Both the position numbers and the translations under genes were made by a program. The notes under the pieces were generated by a model. The model saw only the letters and a list, made by a program, of their open reading frames with translations. It did not search any database and had not been told where the DNA came from. 64,000 nt of DNA from positions 1-64,000 of the forward strand of contig LNEJ01000034.1 in NCBI GenBank assembly GCA_001464965.1, in the 5' to 3' direction. Numbering within the stretch: the stretch's first letter is position 1; each line of letters starts with the position of its first letter. Source of the stretch: Gammaproteobacteria bacterium Ga0074134 (lineage in GTDB: Bacteria > Pseudomonadota > Gammaproteobacteria > Ga0077554 > Ga007554). Shown in pieces: positions 43,784 to 49,542 of the stretch.

Positions 43784-44785
43784 ATGAAAGCCATAATGAT
43801 GACTGCCGTGGGTGGCCCCGGCGTATTGCAACTCCGGGAAATCCCAATACCCACCCTGAATCGGGACACGGATATACTGGTGCGCCTGAAGGCTGCCGGG
43901 GTGAATCCGGTGGACACCAAGCTGCGCAGCCGCGGCACCTATTACCCTGGGCGCCTGCCCACCATCCTTGGCTGTGATGGCGCGGGAATCGTGGAAGCGG
44001 CCGGGCCAGCCGTGAGTCGCTTCAAGGTGGGTGACGGGGTGTACTTCTGCAACGGAGGTATCGGCGGCCATCCCGGCAATTACGCCGGATACGCCGTTGT
44101 CGATGAGCGATACGCGGCCCGCAAACCTGCCACCCTCAGTTTCGCCGAGGCCGCCGCCGCGCCCCTGGTGCTCATCACCGCCTGGGAAGCCCTGCATGAC
44201 CGTGGCCGTTTGCAGGCTGGGCAGAAGGTACTCATACATGCAGGCGCGGGAGGCGTCGGACATATCGCAGTGCAACTGGCAAACATTGCCGGAGCGCGGG
44301 TATGCGCCACCGTTGGCTCCCCGGACAAAGCCGATTTTGTAACAGGCTTGGGTGCGCACCACACCATCCTCTACAAAGAAACGGATTTTGTGGAGGCGGC
44401 GCTGAAATGGAGTGATGGCAACGGGGTTGATCTGGCGCTGGACACTGTGGGCGGCAAGACCTTCGCCGCAACGTTTAACGCTGTGCGCTTCTATGGCGAT
44501 ATCGTCACCCTGCTCCAACCCGGCAACGATATTGACTGGAAAGAAGCGCGACAACGCAATCAGCGCGTCAGCCATGAACTGATGCTGTCACCCATGTATT
44601 ATGGATTGGCCGAAGCACAGCAGCACCAGGCGTGGATTCTGGAACAATGCGCGTCGCTGTTCGACACGGGCAAATTAAAGATCAGCCTCGCGCATACATT
44701 CCCTTTGGAAAAGGCTGCCGAGGCGCATCAACTATTGGAAAAGGGCTCCATTACTGGCAAGGTCGCATTGATTGTTGAAGAGTAA
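43784..44785 (+). CDS. Zinc-independent quinone oxidoreductase (medium-chain dehydrogenase family)
   Basis: 333 residues. GroES-like N-terminal domain (VNPVDTKLRSRGTYYPGRLPTILGCDGAGIVE near residue 40) and an NADPH-binding Rossmann domain (VLIHAGAGGVGHIAVQLANIAGARV near 150). No cysteine cluster for structural zinc. Family members reduce quinones or enones, substrate unknown. The start at 43784 gives MKAIMMTAVGGPGVL. The last 100 bases of the gene and the following 110 are duplicated about 0.93 kb downstream (45600-45855), on the far side of the toxin-antitoxin genes. Confidence 0.9.
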   Translation: MKAIMMTAVGGPGVLQLREIPIPTLNRDTDILVRLKAAGVNPVDTKLRSRGTYYPGRLPTILGCDGAGIVEAAGPAVSRFKVGDGVYFCNGGIGGHPGNYAGYAVVDERYAARKPATLSFAEAAAAPLVLITAWEALHDRGRLQAGQKVLIHAGAGGVGHIAVQLANIAGARVCATVGSPDKADFVTGLGAHHTILYKETDFVEAALKWSDGNGVDLALDTVGGKTFAATFNAVRFYGDIVTLLQPGNDIDWKEARQRNQRVSHELMLSPMYYGLAEAQQHQAWILEQCASLFDTGKLKISLAHTFPLEKAAEAHQLLEKGSITGKVALIVEE

Positions 44786-44895
44786 TTCCAATTCCCGCGA
44801 GGCGGGAGGGCTGGAATGAGGGTTCATGCAGGGTGGGTTCGCATCGCGAAGCCCACCAAACGTTGCGAATTAACACAACGCCGTAACCTTACCTG
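44670..44895 (+). repeat. Direct repeat, copy 1 (3' end of the oxidoreductase and downstream DNA)
   Basis: Covers the last codons of the oxidoreductase, its stop, and the GTGGGTTCGCATCGCGAA hairpin. Matches 45600-45855 with scattered differences and a 15-base deletion in copy 2. The toxin-antitoxin pair lies between the copies. Confidence 0.85.
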
Positions 44896-44959
44896 ATTCT
44901 ACAATACTGGGTTGATGGTGAGGATTAAGTCAGGGGAGCGTAGATGAAAATAAGCTTTC

Positions 44960-44987
44960 TTGACATAACTTATAAATAGCTTATATT
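44960..44987 (+). promoter_or_regulatory. Promoter of the toxin-antitoxin pair
   Basis: TTGACA (44960-44965) and TATATT (44982-44987) with a 16-base spacer, the best sigma-70 match in the window. Transcription would start at about 44994, next to the ATG at 44995. ATAAGC (about 44950) and GCTTAT (about 44979) form an inverted pair around the promoter and could be operator half-sites for autoregulation. Confidence 0.65.
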
Positions 44988-44994
44988 TAATTTT

Positions 44995-45258
44995 ATGAAT
45001 ACCATTGAATGGTCTACTAAAGCAGCCAGGCAACTTCGCAAGGTAGCCGATAGGGTCAAACGCCAGAAAATCTTTGCTGAGGTACAGCAATTAGCAAACT
45101 GGCCGGACTGCCAAGGCAACATCAAGCGCTTGCAGGGGCGCGACGATTACCGACTTCGTGTGGGTGACTATCGGGTGATCTTTGAGATTGGCCAAGACAG
45201 TACCCCCATCATTGTCACTATCATGCAGGTGGAGAAACGCAATGAACGTACCTATTAA
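44995..45258 (+). CDS. RelE/ParE-family toxin
   Basis: 87 residues. Pattern of the RelE superfamily: IEWSTKAARQLRKVADRVKRQKIFAEVQQLANWP, then IKRLQGRDDYRLRVGDYRVIFEI near residue 42 (the Arg-rich central strand), and a beta-strand end IIVTIMQVEKRNERTY. RelE-type toxins cleave mRNA on the ribosome, ParE-type ones poison gyrase; sequence alone does not decide. No ribosome-binding site precedes the ATG. The antitoxin gene overlaps its last 17 bases. Toxin-first order is like HigBA. Confidence 0.88.
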   Translation: MNTIEWSTKAARQLRKVADRVKRQKIFAEVQQLANWPDCQGNIKRLQGRDDYRLRVGDYRVIFEIGQDSTPIIVTIMQVEKRNERTY

Positions 45259-45571
45259 TGTTCAGATTCTAAAAGATGCGGAGGGAAAACCCGCTTTCGC
45301 TGTGATTCCGTATAGTGACTATTTAAGATTACCCCAACGCCGTGAGCCAACCGTTCCCAACGATGTCGTCGGCAAAGTGGTTAATGATGAGATGACGCCT
45401 GTCCGGGCATGGCGTGAGCATCTTGGGCTAACCCAGGCAGATGTCGCGCAACGCCTTGGCATCTCTCAAAGTGCCTACGCGCAACAGGAAGCCAAAGAGA
45501 GCGTACGGAAATCTACTCGCGAAAAGATTGCGCGTGCACTTGGCATTGAACCCGAACAACTGGAGATTTAA
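45242..45571 (+). CDS. Xre-family antitoxin with helix-turn-helix domain
   Basis: 109 residues. The C-terminal half is an HTH_3 domain: TPVRAWREHLGLTQADVAQRLGISQSAYAQQEAKESVRKSTREKIARAL. The N-terminal half (NVPINVQILKDAEGKPAFAVIPYSDYLRL) resembles the toxin-binding domain of Phd/DUF-type antitoxins. Should neutralise the toxin and repress the promoter at 44960. The ATG at 45242 overlaps the toxin frame by 17 bases, giving coupled translation. Confidence 0.88.
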   Translation: MNVPINVQILKDAEGKPAFAVIPYSDYLRLPQRREPTVPNDVVGKVVNDEMTPVRAWREHLGLTQADVAQRLGISQSAYAQQEAKESVRKSTREKIARALGIEPEQLEI

Positions 45572-45599
45572 GTCGGCGATCTGCGCGGCCTACTTGCCG

Positions 45600-45700
45600 G
45601 GAAATTAAAAATCAGCCTCGCGCATACATTCCCTGAGGCACATCAACTATTGGAAAAGGGCTCCATTACTGGCAAGATCGCATTGATTGTTGAAGAGTAA
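45600..45700 (+). pseudogene. Truncated duplicate of the oxidoreductase 3' end
   Basis: Encodes KLKISLAHTFP then EAHQLLEKGSITGKIALIVEE and a stop, the same as the end of the gene at 43784-44785 except for a 15-base in-frame deletion and a few substitutions. No start or upstream part. Part of the duplicated block 45600-45855. Confidence 0.85.
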
Positions 45701-45855
45701 TACCAATTCAATAGTGTATTTTTACCCGACTTCGCCCCCTCGCTACGCTCTCCCCGCAAGGCGAGAGAGAGGGCTGGGGTGAGGACTCAATGTAGGGTGG
45801 GTTCGCATCGCGAAACCCACCAAACGTTGCGCAGCAACACAATGCCGTAGCCTTG
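45600..45855 (+). repeat. Direct repeat, copy 2
   Basis: Second copy of 44670-44895, including the stop of the oxidoreductase fragment and the GTAGGGTGGGTTCGCATCGCGAA hairpin (45791-45822). Slightly longer because of extra bases between the stop and the hairpin. The remainder up to the RAYT arm at 45925 holds no gene. Confidence 0.8.
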
Positions 45856-45924
45856 CCTCATTCGGTGCAATGCACTTTGTTTATTGCACCCTACGGTCCC
45901 ACGGTCCTAGATTCCGAACAATCT

Positions 45925-45962
45925 AGCCCGGTAGGTTGGGCTGAATGAAATGAAGCCCAACA
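45925..45962 (+). repeat. REP arm left of the RAYT gene
   Basis: AGCCCGGTAGGTTGGGCTGA begins this 38-base unit, which folds on TTGGGCT...AGCCCAA. It matches the right arm (46517-46554) in inverted orientation at 37 of 38 bases. Confidence 0.88.
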
Positions 45963-45983
45963 TAAATGGGGGTGGTTGTACAG

Positions 45984-46514
45984 ATGCGTTACCGGCGTGC
46001 CGATGCGGCGGGAGGAACATATTTTTTCACCGTAAATCTGGCCGAACGCCGTTCGGATTTATTGGTGCGGCATATCGATGAATTGCGTGAGGCCATGAGA
46101 ACGGTGAAAGACGTGCATCCGTTTTCCATTGTGGCGATGGTGGTGTTGCCCGAACACCTGCACGCGATATGGCGCTTGCCGCCGGGTGATGCCGATTATC
46201 CGCTGCGCTGGTCGCTAATCAAATCGGGGTTCTCACGGCGGCTGGCAAAAGGCGAGCACATCCGTGCCAGCCGCCGGGCAAAGCGGGAGCGTGGCATTTG
46301 GCAACGGCGGTATTGGGAACATCAAATCCGGGATGAAACCGATCTGGCGCGGCATGTAGATTACATTCATTTTAACCCGGTGAAACATGGCTGGGTGGCT
46401 CGTGCTGTGGATTGGCCGCATTCAACACTGCACGGATACATCGAGCGGGGCATGGTGACAGCGGATTGGGGTGGACAAATGTGTGAAGGGGTGAGTGGTT
46501 ATGGTGAATGTTGA
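45984..46514 (+). CDS. REP-associated tyrosine transposase (RAYT, Y1_Tnp family)
   Basis: 176 residues. Single Y1 transposase domain: YRRADAAGGTYFFTVNLAERRSDLLV at the start, FSIVAMVVLPEHLHAIWRLPPGDADYPLRW near residue 53 with the metal-binding HxH (HLH), and RHVDYIHFNPVKHGWVARAVDWPHSTLH near 117 with the nucleophile Tyr in DYIHFNPVKHG. RAYTs process REP palindromes. The start at 45984 follows GGTGG by 8 bases and gives the usual MRYRRAD; an ATG at 45966 is also in frame. The stop lies 2 bases before the right REP arm. Confidence 0.93.
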   Translation: MRYRRADAAGGTYFFTVNLAERRSDLLVRHIDELREAMRTVKDVHPFSIVAMVVLPEHLHAIWRLPPGDADYPLRWSLIKSGFSRRLAKGEHIRASRRAKRERGIWQRRYWEHQIRDETDLARHVDYIHFNPVKHGWVARAVDWPHSTLHGYIERGMVTADWGGQMCEGVSGYGEC

Positions 46515-46516
46515 AA

Positions 46517-46554
46517 TGTTGGGCTTCATTTTATTCAGCCCAACCTACCGGGCT
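46517..46554 (-). repeat. REP arm right of the RAYT gene
   Basis: TGTTGGGCTTCATTTTATTC begins this 38-base unit, the inverted copy of 45925-45962. It ends 66 bases before the start of the helicase gene. Confidence 0.88.
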
Positions 46555-46619
46555 GTATTATATCTCAAACAGCTTCTGAATAGTTGCTTTGAAGATCAAC
46601 AATCAAACCGGACTACGCT

Positions 46620-48764
46620 ATGATTAACACCGTATGGGGCAGCACAGATAAACCTGTTTCGAGCAAGCGGCTTGCTGAACTTCTCAGCACGGAAGCGGGC
46701 CTTGAAGGCACCCTCTATATTGGCTATCCAATCATCGGCACGCCCGAAGGCTCCTTTCCTATAGATGCGCTGCTTGTATCTCCGACCAAAGGCCTGGTCT
46801 TGTTTAGTGTTGTTGAAGGCAAGACCCTCCCGGATTACGCCGTGGTGCAAGACGAGGGGTTCAATAAGATGCAAGCAAAACTGCTCCAGCATCAGACCTT
46901 AATTCACAAACGAAAACTCCTTGTTGGAATTCACACGGTCACGTTTTCGCCTGCCATCACACAACTTGATGTCGATAAGGAGTACCTCCTCTGTAATGCC
47001 GACAACTTGGTTTCGGTTATCGAAGAATTGGATGATTTCGACCCGGTGGTTTTTCCGTCACTGGTTTCGGTTATTCAGGCGATTTCCACACTGCGTCGGG
47101 GCCGTAAGAAACGCGACCTCCATAACCAGAATTCGCGAGGCACTAAGATCAAAGCACTGGAGGATTCGATTGCCAATCTCGACAGCCAGCAGAGCGCGGC
47201 CGTGGTAGAAACCTATGAAGGCGTTCAGCGCATTCGCGGACTTGCCGGATGTGGTAAGACTATCGTTCTGGCTTTGAAAGTTGCCTACTTGCATGCACGT
47301 CATCCTGAATGGTTCATCGCGGTGACATTCAACACCCGGTCACTTAAGAAGCAGTTCGAGAACCTCATCACCACGTTCGTACTGGAACAGGCAAACGAAG
47401 AACCAGACTGGGATAGAATCAGAATCTTGAATGCTTGGGGTGCTCCCGGCGGTATAGACCGCACAGGCATTTACTACGAGTTCTGCCGTGACCATGGTGT
47501 TGAGTATTTGGATTTTGGAACGGCAAAGAATCGCTTTGGATCCGACAACGCATTTGAGGCGGCATGTGACATCGCCCTTCAAGGAGCCAAACAATTCGTG
47601 CCGAAATACGATGCGATCCTGGTTGATGAGGCGCAGGATTTTGCGCCCAATTTCTTGTTACTCTGTTACGAATACCTCAAGGATCCGAAGCGCCTAGTCT
47701 ACGCATACGACGAATTGCAGAACCTCGGAAACAGATCGCTCCCGCCCGTCGAAGAAATCTTTGGCAAAAACACGGATGGAACAGCCCGTGTTGTTATTCA
47801 CCCCCCTGAGCCAGGAAAACCCAAGCAAGATATCATTCTCGACACTTGCTATCGCAACTCCCGCCCTGTTTTATCCACGGCTCATGCTCTTGGATTTGGG
47901 GTTTATCGCGATAAGGGACTTGTTCAAATCTTTGAGAACAAGAACCTCTGGTTCGACATCGGTTATGAAGAAAAGGACGGGGAAATCAAGGACGGCGAAT
48001 TCGTCACACTTACTCGCACGCCAAAATCCAGCCCGGAATTCCTGGACCAGCACTCGCCAGTTGAAGACTTGATTCAGTTCGAAGTCTTCGACACGCCCGA
48101 AGCCCAAACTACGTGGCTCGTTGCGGAGATTCAGCGAAATCTGGCTAAAGACGAGCTGATACCAGACGATATCGTTGTCATAAATCCCGATCCGTTAACA
48201 ACGAAGGGGGCAGTCGGCGGTGCTCGACAGGCTCTGATGCAGATGGGAATCAACTCGAATCTTGCGGGTGTGACGACAATCGCCGATGTCTTCACAGAGC
48301 CGGGGACGGTAACCTTTACCGGCATCTTTCGCGCAAAGGGCAATGAGGCGGCCATGGTCTATGTGATCAATGCACAGGACTGTTTTGGGGCTCTATTGCC
48401 ACGGGATGTTGCACGCGTCCGAAACCGCCTTTTTACCGCAATCACTCGCTCTAAAGCATGGGTTCGGGTTCTCGGCGTCGGGAAGGATATGGCTGACCTT
48501 AAGGCGGAATTTGAAAAGGTGAAGGCAGAGAATTTCGCGCTACGCTTCCGCTACCCGACCGAAGATGAGCGGAAAAAAATGACGACCGTAAACCGTGACA
48601 TGTCGAAAGCGGAGCAAGATCGAAGTGCTAAGCGGAGAAACAACTTCGCCGAGATTATCGCGTCGCTCGAATCAGGGGAGAGTTTCATCGAAGACTATCC
48701 TGATGATCTCGTAGAGAAGCTCCAGACCCTACTCACCAAAAAATCCAAGCGTAAGCGGAAATGA
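46620..48764 (+). CDS. SF1 helicase with N-terminal nuclease-like (NERD-type) domain
   Basis: 714 residues. The C-terminal 500 residues are a UvrD-like helicase: Q-motif LDSQQSAAV at 187-195, Walker A GLAGCGKT at 207-214, Walker B VDEAQD at 335-340, motif V-like RAKGNEAAMVYVIN near 565 and motif VI TAITRSK near 596. The N-terminal 110 residues have the core of a restriction-endonuclease-like fold: Asp49 in FPIDALLVSP, then Glu66-x-Lys68 in VVEGK, with spacing like PD-(D/E)xK nucleases and NERD domains. The tail is Lys-rich. ATG at 46620 has no strong ribosome-binding site. It overlaps the next gene by 4 bases (ATGA). DNA unwinding and cutting is the likely activity; role in defence is inferred from architecture and location. 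Confidence 0.82.
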   Translation: MINTVWGSTDKPVSSKRLAELLSTEAGLEGTLYIGYPIIGTPEGSFPIDALLVSPTKGLVLFSVVEGKTLPDYAVVQDEGFNKMQAKLLQHQTLIHKRKLLVGIHTVTFSPAITQLDVDKEYLLCNADNLVSVIEELDDFDPVVFPSLVSVIQAISTLRRGRKKRDLHNQNSRGTKIKALEDSIANLDSQQSAAVVETYEGVQRIRGLAGCGKTIVLALKVAYLHARHPEWFIAVTFNTRSLKKQFENLITTFVLEQANEEPDWDRIRILNAWGAPGGIDRTGIYYEFCRDHGVEYLDFGTAKNRFGSDNAFEAACDIALQGAKQFVPKYDAILVDEAQDFAPNFLLLCYEYLKDPKRLVYAYDELQNLGNRSLPPVEEIFGKNTDGTARVVIHPPEPGKPKQDIILDTCYRNSRPVLSTAHALGFGVYRDKGLVQIFENKNLWFDIGYEEKDGEIKDGEFVTLTRTPKSSPEFLDQHSPVEDLIQFEVFDTPEAQTTWLVAEIQRNLAKDELIPDDIVVINPDPLTTKGAVGGARQALMQMGINSNLAGVTTIADVFTEPGTVTFTGIFRAKGNEAAMVYVINAQDCFGALLPRDVARVRNRLFTAITRSKAWVRVLGVGKDMADLKAEFEKVKAENFALRFRYPTEDERKKMTTVNRDMSKAEQDRSAKRRNNFAEIIASLESGESFIEDYPDDLVEKLQTLLTKKSKRKRK

Positions 48765-49426
48765 CACCCCAGCAAACACTAAAGCAGATAAATGAACTCA
48801 CGGAGGCTCTCGTCGGACTGAGCCTTTCGAACGAGCAGAATTTTCCATCTACACATGGCAACCCCAATGCGGCATTCGAAATTTCAGTAAGCACTGCCGC
48901 AGGCATGAGCGTTGCGTTAAAGAATGTGGCTTACCGTGACATCTATGTTGAACTGGAGAAGGCGCGGTGCTTTAACATTAAGATGCTAGATGGCGCATTG
49001 ATTTCACTCCGGTACCGATTTAGGGCCGGAGCCATCTGTGAACATTCCCTTTCATACTTCCCGTCCCCGGACCTTGGGCATTTTCAGAACGAGCCAGAGG
49101 TTTATCTCCAGGATGAAATTTACGCCGACGTCATCGCTAGAAATATCGTTCCTTTCCCAGTCCGCTTCGACTTTAGCGACGACCCGAAAAAGTTCGTAAA
49201 TGTTCATCATCCATATTCCCACTTAACGCTTGGCCAGTATGAAAATTGCCGCATACCGGTCTGCTCTCCCCTTGGACCGCTCGCGTTCGGAGGGTTCATT
49301 TTAAGAAACTTCTACAATACCGCTTTCCGCAAATACTCCGAAAAAATTCCTGCAAGCGCGCTGGCATTCGCCAGCACAATTACGATAAACGAACGGATGA
49401 TTCCACACGTTGTGTGCGGCGTATGA
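48761..49426 (+). CDS. DUF2290-type protein, partner of the helicase
   Basis: 221 residues. I recognise the DUF2290 pattern from HHPYSHLTLGQYENCRIPV at 149-167 and FGGFILRNFYNTAF at 176-189; the N-terminal half is beta-rich with AAFEISVSTAAGMSVALKNV. No signal peptide, membrane segment or known catalytic motif; conserved His and Asn residues in the signature could be an active or binding site. Its start overlaps the helicase stop by 4 bases, so the two proteins are made together in similar amounts. Function unknown. The 116 bases between its stop and the next gene hold nothing I recognise. Confidence 0.75.
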   Translation: MTPQQTLKQINELTEALVGLSLSNEQNFPSTHGNPNAAFEISVSTAAGMSVALKNVAYRDIYVELEKARCFNIKMLDGALISLRYRFRAGAICEHSLSYFPSPDLGHFQNEPEVYLQDEIYADVIARNIVPFPVRFDFSDDPKKFVNVHHPYSHLTLGQYENCRIPVCSPLGPLAFGGFILRNFYNTAFRKYSEKIPASALAFASTITINERMIPHVVCGV

Positions 49427-49542
49427 ATGAACGATGACCGAATAGGTCGATTTCAGCCATTCCGTGGCTAAAGCACACTGGCACCGTCTATCTGATCAAA
49501 CACTGATTACTATACATTACTAACGTCATCCCGAGGCACACC

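Follow-up and report, generated by a model that had tools for sequence, protein, structure and literature searches.

The window (the whole 64,000-nt stretch of DNA analysed here) carries adjacent genes for a superfamily 1 (SF1) helicase and a DUF2290 protein. As judged from their sequences, they very probably constitute a member of the Helicase + DUF2290 anti-phage defence system, a two-gene cassette acquired into a variable, defence-prone site. The sequence-only reading of this DNA had already suggested a two-gene defence module, and this part of it is supported by the PADLOC models, by the literature, by the obligatory pairing of the genes and by the mobile or defence contexts in which they are found.

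Assignment to the Helicase + DUF2290 system

The helicase matched the PADLOC profile PDLC03002 (Helicase) from residue 1 to 707 of 714 and from profile position 1 to 706 of 707 (E = 0, 1054.6 bits). The partner matched PDLC02999 essentially over its full length (E = 7.9e-97), as well as Pfam PF10053 (E = 1.6e-48). Both genes lie on the same strand, helicase first, and their intact ORFs overlap by 4 bases (ATGA, 48761-48764). Coordinates, lengths and overlap were as originally read. The SF1 helicase motifs are likewise present: every key residue of the ATPase motifs is in place, and K213, T214, D336, E337, R412, K573, G574, E576 and R610 are identical in all 36 homologues. Features are listed in Table 1.

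Table 1. Coordinates of the gene pair, its parts and its surroundings in the window
Feature	Position	Strand	Basis
SF1 (UvrD-like) helicase subunit	46620-48764	+	714 aa; PADLOC PDLC03002, Pfam UvrD_C_2, AF2 model
DUF2290 partner	48761-49426	+	221 aa; Pfam PF10053, PADLOC PDLC02999
NERD-like N-terminal domain, helicase residues 1-170	46620-47129	+	Alpha-beta order of the model, hhalign; apparently without the nuclease E/K residues
Walker A GLAGCGKT, helicase residues 207-214	47238-47261	+	K213/T214 36/36; G207, A209, G210, G212 invariant
Walker B DEAQD, helicase residues 336-340	47625-47639	+	D336, E337, Q339, D340 invariant
D77 codon of DUF2290	48989-48991	+	Invariant, 34/34 sequences
R135-F-D137...H150-P-x-x-H154...R164 block of DUF2290, proposed active site	49163-49252	+	Residue conservation
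Transferred unit	46587-49437	.	blastn matches in other phyla
Variable site between ADH and YheT-like genes	44786-49446	.	blastn against congeners G005, G006
TA pair, ParE-type toxin + HTH antitoxin	44995-45571	Upstream of pair, co-directional	Profile matches
RAYT gene	45966-46514	Upstream of pair, co-directional	NF047646, 201.7 bits

The sequence-only reading had considered the system possibly unnamed, a claim that was to be given up on a match to a characterised one. Both dedicated PADLOC models matched, and the system has been known as Helicase + DUF2290 since 2022 (Rousset et al.). We regard the identity of the pair as settled, the system being a known one.

Helicase + DUF2290 is reported to block phage T7 (Rousset et al. 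2022, PMC9122126), and the PA1372/PA1371 pair of Pseudomonas aeruginosa PAO1 is given as a Helicase + DUF2290 system (PMC11637435). Helicase mutations at the PA1372/PA1371 locus relieve plasmid cost (San Millan et al. 2015, PMC4410645). In the same paper, loss of PA1372 removed the cost of pNUK73, lowered rep expression 11-fold and restored the transcriptional profile; it also relieved SOS induction and rep over-expression, without significant change in copy number. These effects are consistent with an action on replicating foreign DNA. The excerpts of the literature naming DUF2290 report no mechanism for the system.

The AF2 model of the helicase (pLDDT 87) had SF1 helicases as its best Foldseek matches. 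The TM-scores are low, at about 0.4 or below, which domain movements may explain. Human SLFN11 ranked at the top of the solved folds (E = 3.1e-16), followed by SLFN14 and Dna2, while bacterial PcrA ranked lower.

Co-inheritance and horizontal transfer of the pair

Each of the 37 DUF2290 loci with complete flanks has a helicase gene immediately upstream in the same orientation, as in the window; this is the outcome of a check on the adjacency of homologues proposed with the original reading. In viral-contig loci found with the helicase as seed, a DUF2290-family or DUF2290-like ORF follows downstream wherever the contig end does not cut it off, and this includes a very divergent branch. A first scan of viral contigs with a single-protein query and a search of annotated phage records had given no matches. 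Pairwise distances of the two proteins are strongly correlated in a mirror-tree comparison (r = 0.96), a value reached in none of 2000 permutations.

By blastn, the window pair is 69-90% identical at the DNA level to eight loci. These were assigned to Sulfuricellaceae, Desulfobulbaceae, Verrucomicrobia, Geobacter, Planctomycetes and others; most of these records are metagenome-assembled, and individual host assignments need care. In most loci the similarity sets in 15-33 bases ahead of the helicase start; it ends close to the DUF2290 stop codon, and no DNA similarity to the eight loci was detected outside the pair (46587-49437). In one 88% identical copy (L003:5864-8004), the helicase is present as two overlapping ORFs, reflecting a frameshift or an assembly error. 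The DUF2290 gene was found in none of seven other genomes of the host's family and in 9 of 399 genomes sampled across the phylum. The AT-richness pointed out in the sequence-only reading is real, if modest in size: the GC content of the pair is 50.5%, versus 56.1% for the window, which places it in the bottom 1.1% of segments of equal length. The pair moves as a cassette, obligatorily co-inherited, and its acquisition is recent.

Insertion site and genomic contexts

The interval between the alcohol dehydrogenase (ADH) and YheT-like hydrolase genes varies within the genus, as shown by blastn against two congeners. G006 carries there the same TA, a DJ-1/PfpI gene and an HTH / HNH-endonuclease / D12 adenine-methylase set, without the pair, and G005 carries DJ-1/PfpI together with a caspase-domain protein. 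The right junction (window 49445-49447) is common to all three. The site is a small defence hotspot in the genus and may hold further systems.

Profile matches recovered both the TA pair and the RAYT unit that had been recognised upstream in the sequence-only reading. After the TA pair, a degenerate copy of the ADH 3′ end (44669-44796) is found at 45596-45709. This duplication also flanks the TA in G006, which suggests that the insertion duplicated the end of the gene. The RAYT gene is closely bracketed by a 39-base inverted repeat (97% identical; 45925-45963 and 46516-46554), forming a self-contained REP/RAYT unit.

Contexts in relatives were tallied from sampled neighbours of their pairs, as raw occurrences with no background rate. 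Among type I restriction genes, the pair is flanked by HsdS and HsdR in two loci (L002, L010) and adjoins HsdS in L006 and HsdR in L004 and L038; in L032 it is located within a BREX operon. It was also observed in an SPI-7-type integrative element (ICE) with Abi-alpha (L046), next to trb-type transfer genes in L044 and L045, on conjugative plasmids in L030 and L031, and on prophage-like contigs. A neighbour in L020, guessed from its length to be hsdR, was rejected as such, being an AcrB-type transporter.

Alternative readings

Instead of a defence system, the pair could be a host helicase for DNA repair or plasmid maintenance. The published effects of PA1372 on plasmid replication-gene expression and SOS go in this direction, as does the presence of UvrD, Dna2 and Schlafen proteins among the nearest solved folds. 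However, the patchy presence of the pair in the phylum and in the host's family, its horizontal transfer, the T7 defence published for relatives and the R-M and BREX contexts make this reading very improbable. Still less probable is that the upstream TA pair and RAYT gene belong with the pair to one larger system. All are adjacent and co-directional, and on some plasmids and chromosomes TA or HTH genes adjoin the pair, but congener G006 carries this TA in the absence of the pair, the cross-phylum DNA similarity leaves out both TA and RAYT, and the TA toxin of an E. coli plasmid shows no similarity to that of the window. TA and RAYT were rejected as system parts on these congener and cross-phylum comparisons, an exception arising only if defence needs the TA.

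A further alternative concerns the division of labour within the defence system. The sequence-only reading had taken the helicase for a nuclease fusion with a D49...E66-x-K68 core; the N-terminal domain would then be an active nuclease, as in helicase-nuclease fusions, and DUF2290 would have a sensing or regulatory role. The letters of this core are present. In the helicase model, the alpha and beta elements of the domain follow the order of a PD-(D/E)xK core, which D49 also fits, and residues 27-66 show moderate profile similarity to NERD (hhalign 68.6%). D49 is moreover retained in 28/28 members of paired set A2. Yet the core is not a conserved motif: among 36 homologues, K68 is kept in only 9, E66 in 25 and D49 in 31, the last having disappeared from the most distant branch. 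The NERD profile places E and K five and seven residues past the shared glycine, where the window has S63 and V65, and E66 is out of register. The nuclease fusion is thus unsupported, because the core E and K are neither conserved nor in the NERD register, and we consider an active nuclease at this position unlikely. Only P37 is invariant in the N-terminal domain, versus dozens of residues in the helicase core. The simplest reading would be a dead nuclease fold retained for binding, the NERD-like domain probably being a non-catalytic DNA-binding or docking domain.

DUF2290 as candidate effector

Seven residues of DUF2290 (D77, R135, H150, H154, R164, F176 and Y185) are invariant in 34/34 sequences, down to 18% identity, and D137 is D in 32/34 and E in the remainder. 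As judged by this conservation, the polar residues look like an active site; the invariant residues could also be structural or located at the partner interface. The AF2 model has a pLDDT of 76, with the motif block partly of low confidence (residues 151-160), and no PDB or viral structure matched the fold below E = 0.1. An enzymatic function is therefore deduced from conservation alone. Two candidate relationships were discarded: the only PDB sequence match, to the dual-specificity phosphatase 7ncy (E = 0.018, 41 residues), had no fold support, and a TumE/DUF6516-like toxin received an hhalign probability of 0.5%.

The effector role is assigned to DUF2290 on account of its seven invariant residues, versus P37 as the only one in the helicase N-terminal domain. 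That DUF2290 is an enzymatic effector appears to us an even proposition from sequence. A fuller proposal, in which it would be an effector enzyme of a fold unlike any solved, with a D/R/D/H/H/R active site, licensed by a helicase with a dead nuclease domain and defining a superfamily in which STM2766 is also included (see below), is put forward tentatively, as a possibility with the odds somewhat against it. The focus shifts from the helicase N-terminus to DUF2290, which is probably the effector.

Proposed mechanism

Most likely, the helicase would recognise or load on DNA structures of foreign replication, such as ends, forks or ssDNA of phage or plasmid. Its ATP hydrolysis may then license the DUF2290 subunit, which would most likely cut or modify nucleic acid via the invariant D/R/H/H/R set. 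The NERD-like domain would probably serve DNA binding or docking, without catalysis. The trigger, the identity of the effector and the target are what we infer here, whereas the pairing and the ATPase motifs are observed, and T7 inhibition by relatives and plasmid interference by PA1372 are published.

Comparison with known systems

The window pair shares with Helicase + DUF2290 (Rousset et al. 2022; DefenseFinder Rst_HelicaseDUF2290; PADLOC helicase-DUF2290) both genes, their order and strand, the overlap or near-overlap, full-length profile matches and mobile contexts. No defining difference was found, and the window pair falls in a clade that spans phyla, with 75-91% protein identity (DUF2290). 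PA1372/PA1371 of PAO1 is the same system by published annotation and was also horizontally acquired, with a GC content below that of its host. The plasmid effect was measured there for PA1372, whereas the window pair is known from sequence.

The helicases of Gabija (GajB), Hachiman (HamB) and NERD-UvrD (C3a187) are comparable in that an SF1 or SF2 defence helicase is associated with a partner protein, and the GajB and C3a187 profiles show weak similarity to the window helicase. The partner differs: it is DUF2290 by Pfam in the window, as opposed to HamA in Hachiman or, in Gabija, the OLD-type TOPRIM ATPase-nuclease GajA, which membership of Gabija requires. The window pair was not retained as Gabija. 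In contrast to these three helicases, the NERD-like N-terminal domain of the window is without the conserved E/K.

STM2767/STM2766 (helicase + helicase-associated protein) of Salmonella and E. coli is, as judged by sequence, a distant, uncatalogued sister of Helicase + DUF2290. These genes were observed at L068:5530-8150, L070, L071, L072 and, in E. coli, L128:8001-10624; in E. coli strain 3985, they are embedded in prophage tail genes, with an AbiTii gene and ssrA alongside. Judging by titles, the literature naming STM2767 apparently includes none on defence. The helicases are 22-25% identical and a small partner is again adjacent; in contrast to DUF2290, STM2766 is not recognised by Pfam or PADLOC. 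RFD...HPxxH is kept and is the only similarity left in the STM2766 branch, which supports a central role of this block.
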